Positions 21,000-61,046 of a stretch of DNA of 64,000 nt are shown here, in pieces. Origin of the DNA: Pseudomonadota bacterium (lineage in GTDB: Bacteria; Pseudomonadota; Gammaproteobacteria; Burkholderiales; Thiobacillaceae); the NCBI GenBank assembly GCA_021811235.1, contig JAJZPG010000002.1:62001-126000 (forward strand), in the 5' to 3' direction. Below the pieces are notes generated by a model, which searched no databases, had not been told where the DNA came from, and worked only from the letters and a program-made list of their open reading frames with translations. Position numbers and translations under genes: made by a program. Each line of letters begins with the position of its first letter. Positions within the stretch are counted from its first letter, which is position 1.

Positions 21000-21079
21000 G
21001 ACAATCCGTTATCTGAGTGAGGCACAGGCCGTGCGCGCACGGAATGCGAAGCAACCGCTGTGCCATTCCGGCAGGCCGG

Positions 21080-25900: not shown

Positions 25901-26076
25901 AGCGAATTAAAAAACTGGCGTCAATGCAAAGACTGCTAGCAAGCCACGGGCCAGCCTGCAAAACCCGGCCGCATCGTGGATGGGCAGCGCCCCGCTCCGT
26001 CGGATGCGCCACCCCGGACGTTGGCAACCCGACACCCATGTCGTAAGTCCGACGCCCGCCGCGGTATCATGTGCCC

Positions 26077-54305: not shown

Positions 54306-55354
54306 GCCAGCCGGAGCGGATTGTTGGGGTCGATGCCCGGCATGAAGGGCAGGCCGCGTTCGCGGTGCGTGACCTGGTAGACGCAGCCGATCCAGTTGCC
54401 GACCACCGCTTCGGCGGTGTCGTGCCAGGTGTTGTCGAGCTGCGGCAGCACCAGCGCCTCCGGGAACGCCACCGTGTCGCCGGCGCGCATGCGGCTGCCG
54501 AACTCGGCGAGCAATGCCTGCGCCTGGCGGTTGAAGTAGCGCTGCGGGAACGGCGGGAAGGCGGGCAGCGTGCCGGACGCGGCCAGCAGCAGGTCGCGCT
54601 TGTATTCCTTCAGCAGCGACACCGTGTCGTATTCGGGATGCCCCTGGAAGAACACGGTACGCAGGCCGTCGCCGCTCACCGCCAGATGCACGCCGGCGTC
54701 CGCGCTCTCGACCAGCACCTTGACCCCGGCCGCCTCGAACTGCGCGCGCGAGACGTCGTTCCAGCGCGAATGCGGGACATCGAACCGGGTATTGACGTCG
54801 GCCACCAGCGGATGGCGGCCGTCGGTGACGCGATGTTCGAACACGCCCCAGATCTTGTGCGGCTGTTTCACCCGCGTCTTCCCGTGGCGGAACTGCATCA
54901 CCGCGTGGGTGGCGAGGCACGAGCACAGCGTCGAGGTGACGTGGTCCCAGGCCCAGTCGATCACCTCGATCAACGGCTCCCAGAACGGCTCGTCGGCGAG
55001 GTTGGGATGGCTGACGTTGGCGCCGGTGATGATGAGCGCGTCGAGCCCGGCTTCGCGGATCGCCTCGAAGGATTCGTAGTACTGCGCGATGTGCGCCTGC
55101 GCCTTCTCCCCGCGCGGCAAGGTCGGCAGGGTGAAGGGATGCATGTAGAACTGCGCGATCGGGTTGGATTCGCCGACCAGCCGGTAGAACTGCCGCTCGG
55201 TCGCCTCCAGCGCGGCGTCCGGCATCATGTTCAGGAGACCGACGTGCAGCTCGCGGATTTCCTGCTTGGCCGCGCGCTCGGTCGACAGCACCGTGATGCC
55301 GTCCTGGCGCAGACGCTCGAAGGTGGGCAGCGCGTTATGCGCGACCAGCGGCAT
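54302..55354 (-). CDS. metA: Homoserine O-acyltransferase, MetA family
   Basis: 350 residues. VGLLNMMPDAALEATERQF, ITGANVSHP, the nucleophile in STLCSCLATHA and FFQGHPEYD with the catalytic His match MetA (class-I glutamine-amidotransferase fold). It acylates homoserine with succinyl- or acetyl-CoA in methionine synthesis; the acyl donor cannot be decided here. The ribosome site (AGGGGG) is supplied by heptad tract D, five bases before the ATG. Confidence 0.95.
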   Translation of the reverse strand: MPLVAHNALPTFERLRQDGITVLSTERAAKQEIRELHVGLLNMMPDAALEATERQFYRLVGESNPIAQFYMHPFTLPTLPRGEKAQAHIAQYYESFEAIREAGLDALIITGANVSHPNLADEPFWEPLIEVIDWAWDHVTSTLCSCLATHAVMQFRHGKTRVKQPHKIWGVFEHRVTDGRHPLVADVNTRFDVPHSRWNDVSRAQFEAAGVKVLVESADAGVHLAVSGDGLRTVFFQGHPEYDTVSLLKEYKRDLLLAASGTLPAFPPFPQRYFNRQAQALLAEFGSRMRAGDTVAFPEALVLPQLDNTWHDTAEAVVGNWIGCVYQVTHRERGLPFMPGIDPNNPLRLA

Positions 55355-56255
55355 GCGTGCCCCCTGATCCCTGACCCCTGAATCCTGATTCCTGGACTTC
55401 GGCCCCTGGTTCTTTCCTGGCGATGGCGGCTTCCAGCAACGCGAGGAAGTCGCGCTCGTCGCGCACCTGCGCGATCTCCTGCGAAGTCACCGTGTAGCCA
55501 TGCGGCCTGGCGATCGCCTCGTAGCGCGGGATGCGCGAATGGAACAGGCGCGGGAACACCCAGCGCGCGAAGTCGTTCGGCTCGATCTGGGCGACGAACT
55601 CGAGGCCTTTTTCAGTGAGATAGACCGGCAGGTGCTCAGCGAGGAAGGCCGGGCGGAAATACAGCGGCTTGGGATCGGACTGCGCGCGCTTGATCAGCGT
55701 CTCCTCCTCCTCGCGCGTGGTGGTCTGGATGTAGAGGATCAGCGTGTGCTCGGCCAGGAGTTCGACCACGCCCGGCTCGTCCAGCTCGCACAGGCTGCCG
55801 CCGACGTCGTTGACGAAGTGCGGATAGCCGTAGATTTCCTGGCCCTTGCGGATGAATTCCGGAACGTCCTTCATGGCGGCGATCTCGGCATCGCGGTACG
55901 CCGCCTGGCGGCGCGAGAACTCGTCGAGCGAAAGCCCGCCCCACTCCGGCCCGCCGAGCTTGCCGACGAAGGTGAGCACCGGCCCGAGGTCGTGGATCTT
56001 GATGTTGTTCTTGATGTCGATCCAGTCGTTGCGCAACAGATCGCGCAGAAAGGGCACCTGCATCGCCTGCTGCTTGATCAGGTCGAGGATCGGTTCGTCC
56101 AGGTAGCGCGTGCCGATGCGGTAGTCGCCGGAAAAATGGAACCAGTCGTGGCCGCGCAGCAGGGACGAGATGTGCGTCTTGCCGACACCGGACATGCCCA
56201 GCAGCGTGATGCGCTTGGTCGGCCAGGCGCGGAAGGATTCGGGTGTGAAGTGCAT
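55335..56255 (-). CDS. P-loop ATPase/kinase-like protein of unknown role
   Basis: 306 residues. A clear Walker A (GMSGVGKT, residues 20-27) opens an adenylate/shikimate-kinase-like fold; FSGDYRIGTRYLDEP and GGPEWGGLSLDEFSRRQA are conserved segments. I know this family only as a widespread uncharacterised proteobacterial ATPase. The last 20 residues (VQESGFRGQGSG and onward) are encoded by heptad tract D and look added by the repeat. It overlaps metA by 20 bp. A trailing stem of unrelated sequence suggests the original stop was lost. Confidence 0.8.
   Translation of the reverse strand: MHFTPESFRAWPTKRITLLGMSGVGKTHISSLLRGHDWFHFSGDYRIGTRYLDEPILDLIKQQAMQVPFLRDLLRNDWIDIKNNIKIHDLGPVLTFVGKLGGPEWGGLSLDEFSRRQAAYRDAEIAAMKDVPEFIRKGQEIYGYPHFVNDVGGSLCELDEPGVVELLAEHTLILYIQTTTREEEETLIKRAQSDPKPLYFRPAFLAEHLPVYLTEKGLEFVAQIEPNDFARWVFPRLFHSRIPRYEAIARPHGYTVTSQEIAQVRDERDFLALLEAAIARKEPGAEVQESGFRGQGSGGTHAAGRA
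55363..55411. repeat. Heptad repeat tract D at the metA start
   Basis: Seven units in exact 7-bp register: cctgatc, cctgacc, cctgaat, cctgatt, cctggac, ttcggcc, cctggtt. On the minus strand they encode the ATPase C-terminal tail and provide the metA ribosome site. Confidence 0.85.
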
Positions 56256-56316
56256 GAACTCGGGTTTTGGATGACCAGCCCGAAGCCTACCGAAAAGCCA
56301 TGCAATTAAAAAGGGC

Positions 56317-56365
56317 GCACCCCGCTTTGGTGCACGAGGGTACCCGCCCCGCACCAATTCGGCTC
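56317..56365 (+). promoter_or_regulatory. NtrC-like upstream activator motifs
   Basis: GCACC-N7-GGTGC at 56317-56333 (right half TTTGGTGCA is perfect) and GCACCAATTCGGCTC at 56351-56365 (left half perfect) resemble NtrC sites (TGCAC-N7-GTGCA), though the spacing of the first is two bases too long and the second has a weak right half. They lie about 100-145 bp upstream of the sigma-54 promoter, the usual distance. Confidence 0.45.
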
Positions 56366-56462
56366 ACGACCGCCCGGCACGCTTCACCCTCGACGGCCAC
56401 ACCCTGCGCCATTCCCCAGCAATGGCGTGCCCTGCCGCGACACCCGCGTGGCGGCAAACGGC

Positions 56463-56478
56463 TGGCACAACGGTTGCT
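56463..56478 (+). promoter_or_regulatory. Sigma-54 (RpoN) promoter of the guanidine-riboswitch operon
   Basis: TGGCAC-N5-TTGCT is a perfect match to the -24/-12 consensus with GG-N10-GC spacing. Transcription would start near 56489, about 45 bases before the riboswitch aptamer. It implies control by an enhancer-binding protein such as NtrC. Confidence 0.85.
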
Positions 56479-56529
56479 AATACCCCTGCACCGGGAACAG
56501 CGGCGCATCGTCGTCCGCAAGTACCGCGA

Positions 56530-56628
56530 AGGAGGGCTAGGGTTCCGGTCCCGCAGGGGATGCTGGTCCGAGAGCCGCCGGCACCGCCCAAGGGCGGGGC
56601 TCCACGGAGGGACAAAAGCCCGGGAGAC
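56530..56628 (+). ncRNA. Guanidine-I riboswitch (ykkC) aptamer
   Basis: The conserved blocks CTAGGGTTCCGG (56537-56548), CTGGTCCGAGAG (56562-56573) and ACGG-AGGGACAAAAGCCCGGGAGA (56604-56627) appear in order with a CCGCCC/GGGCGG hairpin between the last two, as in the ykkC family bound by guanidine. The 3' end of the aptamer is shared with the hairpin at 56619-56648, so ligand binding and hairpin formation are mutually exclusive: guanidine should switch expression on. Related ykkC subtypes bind ppGpp or PRPP, but the conserved blocks here are those of the guanidine type. Confidence 0.88.
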
Positions 56629-56648
56629 GCGATTGTCGCTCTCCCGGG
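56619..56648 (+). terminator. Expression-platform hairpin overlapping the riboswitch
   Basis: CCCGGGAGA (56619-56627) pairs with TCTCCCGGG (56640-56648), extended by GCGA/TCGC around a TTG loop with one bulged C. The 5' arm is part of the aptamer. The run after it is ACTTATAAACC, poor in T, so termination may need Rho or the element may act on translation of the downstream gene. Confidence 0.7.
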
Positions 56649-56681
56649 ACTTATAAACCTGACATCTCCACGGAGTACACC

Positions 56682-57668
56682 ATGCACCTGAATGCCTTGC
56701 TGAAGACCCTGCTTGCCACCGTTGCCGGTGCCCTCATCGCCGGCCACGCCCATGCCGCCCCCACCCTGAAGCTCGGGCTCACCACCTGGATCGGTTATTC
56801 GCCGTTCTACGTCGCCGACGCGCTCGACCTGTACAAGAAATACGACCTCAAGGTGAAGCTGCAGACCTTCACCGACCCCGCGATGCTGCCGTCGGCGCTG
56901 GCGGGCGGTGCCATCGACGGCGCGCTGATGACCTACGACCAGGTGGTCGGCGCCGCCGGCCAGGGCCAGAATTTCAAGGTGGTGATGCCGGTGGACTACT
57001 CCTACGGCGGCGACGCCGTGCTGGCCGACAAGTCCATCACCCAGGTCAGCCAGCTGAAGGGCAAGAAGGTCGCCTACGCGCCGCTGTCGCCGTCCGACTT
57101 CCTGCTCGCCTATGCGCTGAAGATCAACGGCATGAGCGACAAGGACATCCAGCCGGTGAACATGACGCCGGAAGCGGTGCCCGCGGCGATGGCGTCGGGC
57201 GCCACCTCGGCCGGCGTGACCTACGAGCCCAACGTGTCGCAGATCCTGGATTCCGGCAAGGGCAAGTTCCACGTCATCTATTCCTCGCGCGAAGCACCCG
57301 GCATCATCACCGACGTGCTCGCCTTCGACGTCAAGAAGCTCGGCAAGGACGACAAGCAGATCATGGCCCTGATGCGTGGCTACCTCGACGGCCTCGCCTA
57401 CATGAAGGCCAAGCCGCTTGACGCGGCCAAGCTGATCGGCAAGGCCGTGGGCGTGTCCGACAAGGAAGCGCTGGAGCAGCTGAAGGGCGTCTACAACATT
57501 CCGCTGAAGGAAATGCCCAAGACCTACGCCAAGGGCAAGGACACCACCTCCTTCTACGTCAGCGGCGACGTGATCAACGAGATCCTGATCAAGAACGGCC
57601 AGATCAAGAAGGCCGCCGCGATTCCCGCCACCCTGGACGACCGCTATGTGAAGGCGCTGCTGAAATAA
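56682..57668 (+). CDS. Periplasmic substrate-binding protein (NitT/TauT, NMT1-like)
   Basis: 328 residues. The signal peptide ends GHAHA; LKLGLTTWIGYSPFYVAD, the DGALMTYDQVVGA and GKKVAYAPLSPSDFLL segments match the SsuA/TauA/NMT1-like binding proteins. Being the first gene after the guanidine riboswitch, it may bind guanidine or a guanidino or ureido compound. GGAG lies six bases before the ATG. No permease or ATPase gene follows within the window, so it is an orphan or works with a transporter encoded elsewhere. Confidence 0.9.
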   Translation: MHLNALLKTLLATVAGALIAGHAHAAPTLKLGLTTWIGYSPFYVADALDLYKKYDLKVKLQTFTDPAMLPSALAGGAIDGALMTYDQVVGAAGQGQNFKVVMPVDYSYGGDAVLADKSITQVSQLKGKKVAYAPLSPSDFLLAYALKINGMSDKDIQPVNMTPEAVPAAMASGATSAGVTYEPNVSQILDSGKGKFHVIYSSREAPGIITDVLAFDVKKLGKDDKQIMALMRGYLDGLAYMKAKPLDAAKLIGKAVGVSDKEALEQLKGVYNIPLKEMPKTYAKGKDTTSFYVSGDVINEILIKNGQIKKAAAIPATLDDRYVKALLK

Positions 57669-57716: not shown

Positions 57717-58727
57717 ATGTCCACCCGATTGTTCCGCCACCCCGACGGCGCCCTGCCCAATACGCTGGCGCTGGCCTATTCCCTCTCAGGCTATGCCGGC
57801 GGCCTGTGGCTGATGGCGACCGCATCCTGGCCGCTGGCGCTGGCCGCCACCCTGTGGTTCGCCCACGCATTGATCGTCTCGGCCTACCTGTTCCACGAAT
57901 TCGCCCACGGCACGGTTTTCACCCAGCCCGAGGCCAACACCCGCGGCGGCGTGCTGATGACTTGGCTCACCGGCAGCTGTTACGCCCGCTACGACCACTT
58001 GCGGCGCAAGCACATGCGCCACCACGTCGACCGCGCCGACGTCATCAGCCTCGACACCAAGGCGTTGCTGCAGGCGTCTCCTGTCTGGGTGCGGCGCGCC
58101 GTGCTGGCGCTGGAATGGGCCTACGTGCCGGCGGTGGAATTGCTGATGCACGCCTACGTCGTGGCGCGCCCTTTTCTCGATCCCACGCGGCATGGCGAGC
58201 GCGGCCGTGCCGTCGCCATCCTTGCCGTGCGCGGCAGCGCCTTCGCGGCGCTCGGCCTTGTCTCACCGCGCGCGCTGCTGCTGTATGCCGTCGCGTATCT
58301 GGCCATGGTCACGGTACTGCGCTTCGCCGACGCCTTCCAGCACACCTACGACGCCTACGCCATCCCCGACGGCGACCCGGTCCCGGCCGACCGGCTGCGC
58401 GACAAGGCCTACGAACAGGCCAACACCTATTCCAACCTGGCCAGCCTGCGCTGGCCCTGGATCAACCTGCTGCTGCTGAATTTTCCGTATCACAACGCCC
58501 ACCACGACCGCCCCACCGCCCCGTGGTATCGGCTCCCCGCGCTGCACCGCGAGTTGTATGGCGAGCACCCTCGCCAGGTGATCCCCATGGCCAGGCTCTT
58601 GCTGCCCTTCCATCGCCATCGCGTCACCCGCGTGCAGGCCGAAGACTACGGTGAGGTCGACCCCGGCAGCGGGCAGGCCGCGGCCTTCGTCGGCGCGGTG
58701 TCGGTGTCCTTCCTGACGGCAACATGA
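57717..58727 (+). CDS. Fatty-acid-desaturase-family diiron membrane protein
   Basis: 336 residues. Three histidine boxes are intact: HEFAH (60-64), HMRHH (99-103) and HNAHH (259-263), between hydrophobic segments, as in membrane diiron desaturases and hydroxylases. Its substrate in a guanidine-controlled operon is unclear: it could hydroxylate or desaturate a guanidino compound or an acyl chain. It overlaps the EamA gene by four bases (ATGA). Family-wide assignment is firm; function is open. Confidence 0.88.
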   Translation: MSTRLFRHPDGALPNTLALAYSLSGYAGGLWLMATASWPLALAATLWFAHALIVSAYLFHEFAHGTVFTQPEANTRGGVLMTWLTGSCYARYDHLRRKHMRHHVDRADVISLDTKALLQASPVWVRRAVLALEWAYVPAVELLMHAYVVARPFLDPTRHGERGRAVAILAVRGSAFAALGLVSPRALLLYAVAYLAMVTVLRFADAFQHTYDAYAIPDGDPVPADRLRDKAYEQANTYSNLASLRWPWINLLLLNFPYHNAHHDRPTAPWYRLPALHRELYGEHPRQVIPMARLLLPFHRHRVTRVQAEDYGEVDPGSGQAAAFVGAVSVSFLTAT

Positions 58728-59620
58728 CGACCCTCACGCTGTTCCTCCCGCGCCGCCATGGCACGGCCATCTCCGCCCTGCTGGGCGGAGCCGTGCTATG
58801 GGGGCTGTTCTGGTGGCCGCTCAAGCAGCTCGACGCCGCCGGCATCCATGGCAGCTTCGTGCAGGCGGTCGCCTACGGGCTGCCCGCGCTGGTCCTGCTG
58901 CCGTGGGCCTTGCGCACGTTTCACCTGTGGCGCGACCAGGCCGCGCTGCTGCTGCTCATCGCGCTCCTCGGCGGCTGGGCCAACGCCTCCTTCGCCAGCT
59001 CGCTCACCTACGGCAGCGTGGTACGGGTGCTGTTGCTGTTCTATCTGGCGCCGGTGTGGACCATCCTCGCGGCACGGCTGTTCCTCGGCGAGCCCTTCAC
59101 CCGCCTGCGCCTTCTTGCCCTGGGACTGGCGCTGGCGGGACTGGCGTTCACCCTCGGCGGCCCGGAAATATTCGATTCGCCGCTCTCCGCCATCGACCTG
59201 CTGGCCCTGTCATCGGGCCTTGCCTTCGCCCTCAACAACGTCGCCATCCGTGCCGGCCAGGGGCTGCCCGACGCCGCGCGCGCGGTCGCGGTGTTCGCCG
59301 GCTGCGCCCTGGTCTCGCTCGGCTTCATGGGCTGGCATGGCCAGCCGCTGCCCGCGCTCGAACCGCCCCATCTGCTCGCGCTGGCGGGACTGGCGCTCGC
59401 CTGGGTGCTGCCCGGCACGCTGGCCACGTTCTACGGCGTCGCCCGCCTCGACGCCGGCAAGGCCGCGATCCTGCTGCTGGCCGAGCTGGTGGTGGGCGTG
59501 ATCTCCGCCGTGCTCGTCGGCGGCGAGGCCTTGTCGCCACAGGAGGCACTGGGCGGCGCGCTCATCCTCGCCGCAGCGGTGATCGAGGCGCGCACCGAAT
59601 CGGCGGGAGCCCACGCATGA
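58724..59620 (+). CDS. EamA/DMT-superfamily transporter
   Basis: 298 residues, ten helices in two EamA repeats (first GGAVLWGLFWWPLKQLDAAG, second SSGLAFALNNVAIRAG). EamA proteins export small metabolites and amines; they belong to the same superfamily as the SMR guanidine exporters that guanidine-I riboswitches often control, so export of guanidine or a product is possible. Coupled to both neighbours by ATGA overlaps. Confidence 0.9.
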   Translation: MTTLTLFLPRRHGTAISALLGGAVLWGLFWWPLKQLDAAGIHGSFVQAVAYGLPALVLLPWALRTFHLWRDQAALLLLIALLGGWANASFASSLTYGSVVRVLLLFYLAPVWTILAARLFLGEPFTRLRLLALGLALAGLAFTLGGPEIFDSPLSAIDLLALSSGLAFALNNVAIRAGQGLPDAARAVAVFAGCALVSLGFMGWHGQPLPALEPPHLLALAGLALAWVLPGTLATFYGVARLDAGKAAILLLAELVVGVISAVLVGGEALSPQEALGGALILAAAVIEARTESAGAHA

Positions 59621-60267
59621 ATCCCGCCCGCACCGCCCTGCTGGTGATCGACATGCAGCGCGACTTTCTCGACCCCGGCGGCTACGCAGCCGCGGTCCGT
59701 CTCGACGTCGACGCCCTGCGCCGGCCGATTCCGGCCATCCAGCATTTGCTGGACATTGCGCGCCGCCTCGGCATGCTGGTGGTGCACACGCGCGAAGGCC
59801 ACCGCCCCGATCTGGCCGACTGCCCGCCCGCCAAGCTGGCACGCAGCCGCGCCGCCGGCGCCGAAATCGGCAGCGCCGGACCGCTCGGCCGCCTGCTGGT
59901 GCGCGGCGAGTTCGGCCACGACTTCGTCGACGAACTCCAGCCCCTGCCCGGCGAGCCGGTGATCGACAAACCCGGCTACGGCGCCTTCCATCAGACCGAC
60001 CTGGCGCAAGTCCTGCAGAACCGCGGCATCGAGCATCTCATCCTCGGCGGCGTCACCACAGAAGTATGCGTGCATTCGACCCTGCGCGAAGCGGTCGACC
60101 GCGGCTACGACTGCGCGCTGGCCGGCGACGCCTGCGGCTCGGCCCACCCGCACCTGCACGCCGCCGCCCTGCAGATGGTGGCGGTGGAAGGCGGCGTGTT
60201 CGGACGCGTCGCCGGCAGCGCTGCCCTGATCGCCGAGCTGGAACGCGCGCAGGAGGCCAGGCCATGA
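59617..60267 (+). CDS. Isochorismatase-family cysteine hydrolase
   Basis: 216 residues. The Asp12-Lys117-Cys150 triad is visible in LLVIDMQRDF, VIDKPGYGAF and TTEVCVHST, with the cis-peptide GGVTTE. Members of this fold include biuret, triuret and ureidoacrylate amidohydrolases, so hydrolysis of a ureido- or guanidine-derived compound is plausible in this operon. Substrate not established. ATGA overlaps on both sides. Confidence 0.9.
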   Translation: MNPARTALLVIDMQRDFLDPGGYAAAVRLDVDALRRPIPAIQHLLDIARRLGMLVVHTREGHRPDLADCPPAKLARSRAAGAEIGSAGPLGRLLVRGEFGHDFVDELQPLPGEPVIDKPGYGAFHQTDLAQVLQNRGIEHLILGGVTTEVCVHSTLREAVDRGYDCALAGDACGSAHPHLHAAALQMVAVEGGVFGRVAGSAALIAELERAQEARP

Positions 60268-61046
60268 CCCAGGTTCTGCGCCTGTGGCCGCTGCTCACCG
60301 GCCTCCACAAGTACGACAAGTCGCTGTCGACGCGCAATCGCGGCCACGGCCAGATCATCGAGGCACCGATCCTCGCCTACCTGATCGAGACGAAAAACGG
60401 CCGCATCCTCTACGACGTCGGCTGCGACTACGCCAAGATCGCCGACCCGGCGAAACGCGACCGCTACTACGACCCGGAATCCTTTCCCTTCGGCCCGCCC
60501 GAGATGCGCGAGGAAGACCGCATCCCGCATCATCTGAAACGGCTGGGGCTGACGGCCGCCGACGTCGACGTGGTGTTCGTCGGCCACCTGCACTTCGACC
60601 ATGCCGGCGGGCTGTGCGACGTGTGCGGCGCCGAGGTGCACGTGCAGCAGGCCGAACTCGACGCCGCGCGCTCCGGCCTCGACGTCGCGGTGTTCGCCGA
60701 CGACCTCGCCGGCAATTACAACTGGAAAGCGCAGCAGGGCGAATACGATCTGGTGCCCGGCGTGCGCGCCGTCGCCAGCCCCGGCCACACCGCCGGCCAC
60801 ATGTCGCTGTTCGTCGAGCTGCCGAAGGGGCCGCCGCTCATCCTCTGCGGCGACGCCGCCGACCTCGCGGAAAACCTCGAGCAGGAAATCGCCCCCGGCT
60901 TGTGCTGGCAGGACCGCGAGGACGAAGCGCTGGCGAGCATCCGCAAGCTCAAGTCCATGGCGCGGCAGGAAGGCGCCGAGCTGTGGCCCAACCACGATAT
61001 CGCCTTCTGGAACACGCTGCGGCGTTTCCCGCAATTCCATGAATAG
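60264..61046 (+). CDS. Metallo-beta-lactamase-fold hydrolase (AHL-lactonase-like)
   Basis: 260 residues. HLHFDH (His108, His110, Asp112, His113), SPGHTAGH and the CGDAAD and NHD metal ligands give a two-metal MBL site resembling N-acyl-homoserine lactonases. Activity could be on a lactone, ester or amide; the family name alone does not prove quorum quenching. It is coupled to the cysteine hydrolase and overlaps the GGDEF-EAL gene by 8 bp. Confidence 0.9.
   Translation: MTQVLRLWPLLTGLHKYDKSLSTRNRGHGQIIEAPILAYLIETKNGRILYDVGCDYAKIADPAKRDRYYDPESFPFGPPEMREEDRIPHHLKRLGLTAADVDVVFVGHLHFDHAGGLCDVCGAEVHVQQAELDAARSGLDVAVFADDLAGNYNWKAQQGEYDLVPGVRAVASPGHTAGHMSLFVELPKGPPLILCGDAADLAENLEQEIAPGLCWQDREDEALASIRKLKSMARQEGAELWPNHDIAFWNTLRRFPQFHE

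Follow-up and report, generated by a model that had tools for sequence, protein, structure and literature searches.

A guanidine-I riboswitch behind a sigma-54 promoter and paired NtrC-like sites: a probable two-input leader in Thiobacillus and other Proteobacteria

In a 64,000-nucleotide stretch of a Thiobacillus genome (hereafter the window), a sigma-54 promoter preceded by a pair of NtrC-like sites stands ahead of a guanidine-I riboswitch aptamer and of an operon headed by the gene of a transporter substrate-binding protein. We consider it probable that this leader combines two inputs, expression of the operon requiring both a shortage of ammonium and the presence of guanidine. When nitrogen is limiting, phosphorylated NtrC would bind the pair of sites at 56318-56366 and activate RpoN polymerase at the promoter at 56463-56478, giving a transcript that would open with the guanidine-I aptamer, identified by a model match and with guanidine as its presumed ligand. 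When guanidine is absent, a hairpin at 56619-56648 would capture the 3' arm of the aptamer and expression would be blocked, while in the presence of guanidine the aptamer would keep this arm and expression would continue. The products of the operon would probably import and degrade a compound that we presume to be of the guanidino type, and nitrogen could then be recovered via the guanidine-carboxylase pathway of a second operon with the same type of leader. The parts of this system are known and, as far as can be judged from sequence, their coupled layout appears to be a new combination of them; in the open full-text literature, we found no description of a guanidine riboswitch coupled to sigma-54/NtrC control.

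Regarding the aptamer (56526-56628, plus strand), it matches the Rfam guanidine-I (ykkC) family RF00442 at 74.9 bits, above the cut-off of 63 (cmscan, E-value 3e-12), and over the complete model (positions 1-107). The promoter TGGCACAACGGTTGCT (56463-56478, plus strand) is an exact match to the -24/-12 consensus, with the -24 GG and the -12 GC correctly spaced. The aptamer starts 48 bases 3' of this element, and the predicted transcription start (~56489) lies ~37 bases 5' of the aptamer. A first-pass annotation of the window had read a perfect -24/-12 promoter and a complete ykkC aptamer in this place; both readings hold, the second by the covariance-model score, and the span that it gave, 56463-57668, reaches correctly from the promoter to where the first gene ends. 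A gene for RpoN is present in the genome (467.6 bits, cut-off 277). In the stretch that separates the start site from the aptamer, a small leader hairpin (GCGG..CYGC, 56500-56518, plus strand), which falls outside the Rfam model, is conserved in Thiobacillus leaders, 94% of cells being paired across 9 distinct sequences, with changes that are mostly one-sided. Further downstream, a match to RF02506 (57795-57859, minus strand) reaching 28 bits against a cut-off of 55 was dismissed as chance.

Within the 64 kb of the window, TGGCACN5TTGCW is matched exactly at two places, one of them TGGCACAACGGTTGCT; the slightly relaxed pattern TGGCAYN5TTGCW occurs 16 times over the 2.85 Mb of the genome, and its reversed form twice. 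Such a frequency is the one argument in favor of an accidental association between the aptamer and a promoter-like sequence, an explanation to which we assign a negligible probability and which is already refuted by the conservation of the arrangement. Indeed, when 56 genomes of the genus (Thiobacillus, judging by its named relatives) were searched, guanidine-I matches turned up in 13, to a total of 17; the source genome has two, and one match, decayed-looking, is below the cut-off. A near-consensus -24/-12 element scoring 14-15 of 15.5, read on the aptamer strand, was present at all 17 loci. In these loci, the element starts 68-75 bases 5' of the aptamer core, a near-fixed spacing, while the letters of the spacer differ. 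The sampling was then extended to 399 genomes of the order and 399 of the phylum, a promoter being called when it scored at least 13 of 15.5 and was located 20-120 bases upstream. Among Pseudomonadota loci of the importer type, defined as an aptamer followed by a binding protein, permease, desaturase-like or UAAP gene, 59 of 61 carried the promoter against 0.7% of shuffled sequences, for a set of loci fetched mostly for the best-scoring aptamers and including many that are mutually related.

The same element was found at none of the seven loci in which the aptamer precedes an APC permease gene (0/7), a contrast with the importer type that is partly one of lineage, all seven coming from one family. 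RpoN is encoded in all seven of these genomes, as it is in five others, and the missing promoter is therefore not due to the want of the sigma factor. Guanidine-I aptamers before an APC permease and a guanidinase have been described in comammox bacteria (PMC11410670); the aptamer class is the same as here, but the importer is of another type and the seven APC-type loci that we sampled are devoid of the -24/-12 element. The identical order of elements was recovered in annotated records of Caballeronia (beta), chosen as a same-family stand-in for Burkholderia cenocepacia, of Rhizobium johnstonii 3841 (alpha) and of Pantoea (gamma). On this sequence evidence, the layout appears to be widespread in Proteobacteria. 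The first-pass proposal that nitrogen limitation and guanidine are coupled gains support from the retention of the promoter at every guanidine-I locus of Thiobacillus and at most loci of the importer type, and from a genome that encodes both RpoN and NtrC. In R. johnstonii 3841, pRL9 has in addition a guanidine-II riboswitch (40.2 bits; locus L127, 5117-5166) that is internal to the operon of the guanidine-I aptamer, where the ATPase gene ends and 5' of UAAP1.

Upstream of the promoter, two NtrC-like sites are located on the plus strand at 56318-56334 (CACCCCGCTTTGGTGCA, with a strong right half-site) and at 56350-56366 (CGCACCAATTCGGCTCA, with a strong left half-site), each at a position kept in the genus. 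Taken singly they are weak, each scoring 8.4 of 11.4, and the best site has p = 0.27 in shuffled sequences. Since single-site scoring was uninformative in the window, the sites were assessed as pairs, against controls for spacing, shuffled sequence and scrambled motifs. The window pair, whose starts are 32 bp apart, has a summed score of 16.8, and at spacing 31 a score of 16 is attained in only 0.1% of shuffles. For comparison, the two sites of the E. coli glnA enhancer are ~32 bp apart. Relative to the promoter, the pairs of the genus are consistently positioned, at about -132/-101 or -144/-112. Over the loci examined, a pair scoring at least 16 at a spacing of 30-32 bp was found in 35 of 62, whereas 60 scrambled palindromes gave a mean of 0.1 and a maximum of 4; the commonest spacing was 31 in Thiobacillus and other betaproteobacteria, and 30 and 31 were jointly commonest in the phylum sample. 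The genome's porin-glnK-amtB operon served as a positive control, its promoter bearing a pair with a spacing of 31 and a score of 19.6. For two further sigma-54-type sites of the window, taken as negative controls, the scores were 12.1 and 12.3, at the level of the shuffle mean. The window leader thus resembles the NtrC/sigma-54 promoters of glnA and glnK-amtB, with a -24/-12 element and, between about -100 and -145, two NtrC sites separated by ~31 bp, a layout also shared by the genome's own porin-glnK-amtB operon, but it differs from them by the addition of a ligand-sensing riboswitch as a second input.

NtrC itself is encoded by the genome (702 bits, equivalog cut-off 558.6), together with several further activators of the NtrC family, so that another enhancer-binding protein such as NtrX could drive this promoter instead. 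The weakness of the single sites in the window is in keeping with such an alternative, as is the lack of a convincing pair at some loci (e.g., L033 and L044). We nevertheless regard it as improbable, the 30-32 bp pair matching the NtrC consensus far above scrambled motifs and recurring before the glnK-amtB operon of the same genome. The two NtrC-like motifs noted in the first pass, from which NtrC had been inferred, are accordingly strong as a pair and conserved in place, and NtrC remains the favored activator. On the minus strand, a terminator-like hairpin with a T-tract (56315-56335) overlaps the first NtrC-like site and lies upstream of a divergent gene (55335-56255). Elsewhere in the window, sigma-54-like sites at 21050-21065 and 25938-25953 (both minus strand) stand ahead of ATPase-like and polysaccharide-export-like genes; pair scoring revealed no NtrC site pair at either, and they probably belong to an exopolysaccharide cluster with a different activator.

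Downstream, a hairpin formed by CCCGGGAGA and TCTCCCGGG (56619-56648, plus strand, -24.4 kcal/mol) competes with the 3' part of the aptamer, CCCGGGAGA being common to the 3' end of the aptamer and to the 5' arm of the hairpin; this is the overlapping hairpin that had been noticed from the sequence. Its pairing is preserved in 98% of cells in 15 genus leaders. The 5' arm is nearly invariant, and covariation is one-sided because this arm is fixed by the aptamer. No canonical U-tract follows the hairpin and a terminator scan gives it no score, so that, without a U-tract, an intrinsic terminator is unsupported. The hairpin ends ~24 bases 5' of the presumed ribosome site (GGAG, 56672-56675), which it does not mask. 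The off-state could be reached through Rho-dependent termination, through pausing or by an effect on translation.

Outside the window, at a distance of 28 kb and directly downstream of glnK-amtB, the same genome has a second guanidine-I aptamer (C56:154734-154836, minus strand, 87.8 bits). It heads an operon encoding, in order, a binding protein, a permease, an ATPase, a creatininase-like protein, a type III glutamine synthetase, UAAP1 (364 bits, cut-off 206), UAAP2 (349 bits, cut-off 285), a carboxylase of the urea-carboxylase family (1928 bits, cut-off 1304) and an allophanate hydrolase. We take UAAP1 and UAAP2 to be the subunits of carboxyguanidine deaminase. In addition, the carboxylase has Asp where the yeast urea amidolyase 5i8i has Asn (residue 1330), a substitution that is presumably a mark of guanidine carboxylases. 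Carboxyguanidine deaminase has been described as CgdAB (PMC9800807). An operon with a guanidine carboxylase, next to glnK-amtB, fits the suggestion of the first-pass annotation that guanidine is a managed nitrogen source.

This operon also bears on the identity of the ligand. Related ykkC subtypes bind other ligands, and the window operon contains neither a guanidine carboxylase, nor UAAP1/UAAP2, nor an allophanate hydrolase, two facts that would suit an aptamer sensing ppGpp, PRPP or a nucleotide ahead of an operon unrelated to guanidine. We hold this to be very unlikely: the aptamer scores above the guanidine-I cut-off, its sister heads an operon encoding a guanidine carboxylase and the two subunits of carboxyguanidine deaminase, and in other genera window-type operons adjoin the genes of guanidine-carboxylase operons. 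Guanidine thus remains the ligand that we favor.

The window operon comprises five genes on the plus strand. The first (56682-57668) encodes an ABC transporter substrate-binding protein of the NitT/TauT type (NMT1/SsuA-like; Pfam PF09084 and PF13379), with matches to the NCBIfam models SsuA_fam and ABC_peri_uca that are below cut-off; it is predicted to be the importer component for a guanidine-type compound. It is followed by a membrane protein of the fatty-acid-desaturase family (57717-58727, PF00487), kept in the operon in distant genera, oxygenase-like and probably a pathway hydroxylase, and by an EamA (DMT) transporter (58724-59620, PF00892), likewise kept and taken to be an exporter. The fourth gene (59617-60267, PF00857) encodes an isochorismatase-like cysteine hydrolase whose nearest relative is biuret hydrolase (PDB 6xjm, 233 bits), and the last gene of the conserved operon (60264-61046, PF00753) a lactonase-like hydrolase of the metallo-beta-lactamase fold (AiiA model 147 bits, under the cut-off of 375). 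Guanylurea hydrolase is described as feeding the guanidine carboxylase pathway (PMC9800807); the fourth gene product belongs to the same isochorismatase-like hydrolase family as guanylurea and biuret hydrolases but, unlike biuret hydrolase, it scores below the family cut-off (BiuH model, 269 bits under a cut-off of 370).

The five-gene order recurs in Sulfurisoma, Parasulfuritortus and other betaproteobacteria, while Pseudomonas and Stutzerimonas have the first three genes in common. In longer versions, two SDR dehydrogenases are encoded as well, and one of these versions also has a creatininase-like protein, all as named from sequence alone. The conserved operon is also found behind guanidine-I aptamers at loci L063, L064, L065, L114 and L116. 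Several Thiobacillus genomes have partly lost the operon and kept the promoter and leader (L016/L060, L014/L055, L015/L059, L017/L061); the aptamer leads directly into the metallo-hydrolase gene in L016 and is itself partly deleted in L017. In Gallionellaceae (L103-L113, L115), genes for a carboxylase and/or an allophanate hydrolase precede the operon, which retains the -24/-12 element, with no guanidine-I aptamer at the leader place. Promoter and riboswitch are therefore separable, and guanidine control of this operon is not universal.

These Gallionellaceae loci, together with the relatives that have a leader whose genes are lost and with a competing hairpin devoid of a U-tract, could indicate that the nitrogen promoter is the true control, the riboswitch of the window being a low-effect leftover ahead of an operon for another nitrogen compound. 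To this explanation we give little credence, the core letters of the aptamer and the competing hairpin having been kept in 15 genus leaders and the aptamer recurring before the window-type operon in Sulfurisoma, Parasulfuritortus, Pseudomonas and Stutzerimonas. With both inputs retained as the preferred reading, the window operon looks like an undescribed guanidino-compound pathway. More tentatively, and with a little less than even confidence, we propose that this operon and its longer versions may import a larger guanidino compound, oxidize it by means of the desaturase-family protein and release guanidine or allophanate, NtrC/sigma-54 and guanidine-I gating the process with guanidine as the product signal.

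In Raoultella, Klebsiella and Erwinia, guanidine-I riboswitches have been reported before guanidine importer and carboxyguanidine deaminase genes (PMC12186494). These systems have in common with the present one the aptamer class placed before an ABC importer and, presumably, the assimilation of nitrogen from guanidine. However, the review names neither sigma-54 nor NtrC, whereas a -24/-12 promoter and an NtrC pair precede the aptamer here, and the window operon is another gene set. The NtrC regulon of Burkholderia cenocepacia H111 includes a urea carboxylase (BCAS0272), a related binding protein (BCAS0269) and BCAS0271, guanidine being unnamed (PMC5491218), and a survey of sigma-54 regulons lists 102 COG3665 genes, 59% of them named urea carboxylase, again without naming guanidine (PMC12316311). 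Our results suggest that genes of NtrC regulons annotated for urea are guanidine genes.

Finally, these findings concern two questions, the reason for the abundance of guanidine riboswitches in bacteria and whether guanidine is mainly a poison to be expelled or a nutrient. The sigma-54/NtrC layer before guanidine-I importer operons in alpha-, beta- and gammaproteobacteria suggests that guanidine serves these bacteria as an emergency or reserve source of nitrogen. The two-signal response is a prediction that can be tested in laboratory strains, and the substrate of the conserved operon could reveal a natural origin of guanidine.
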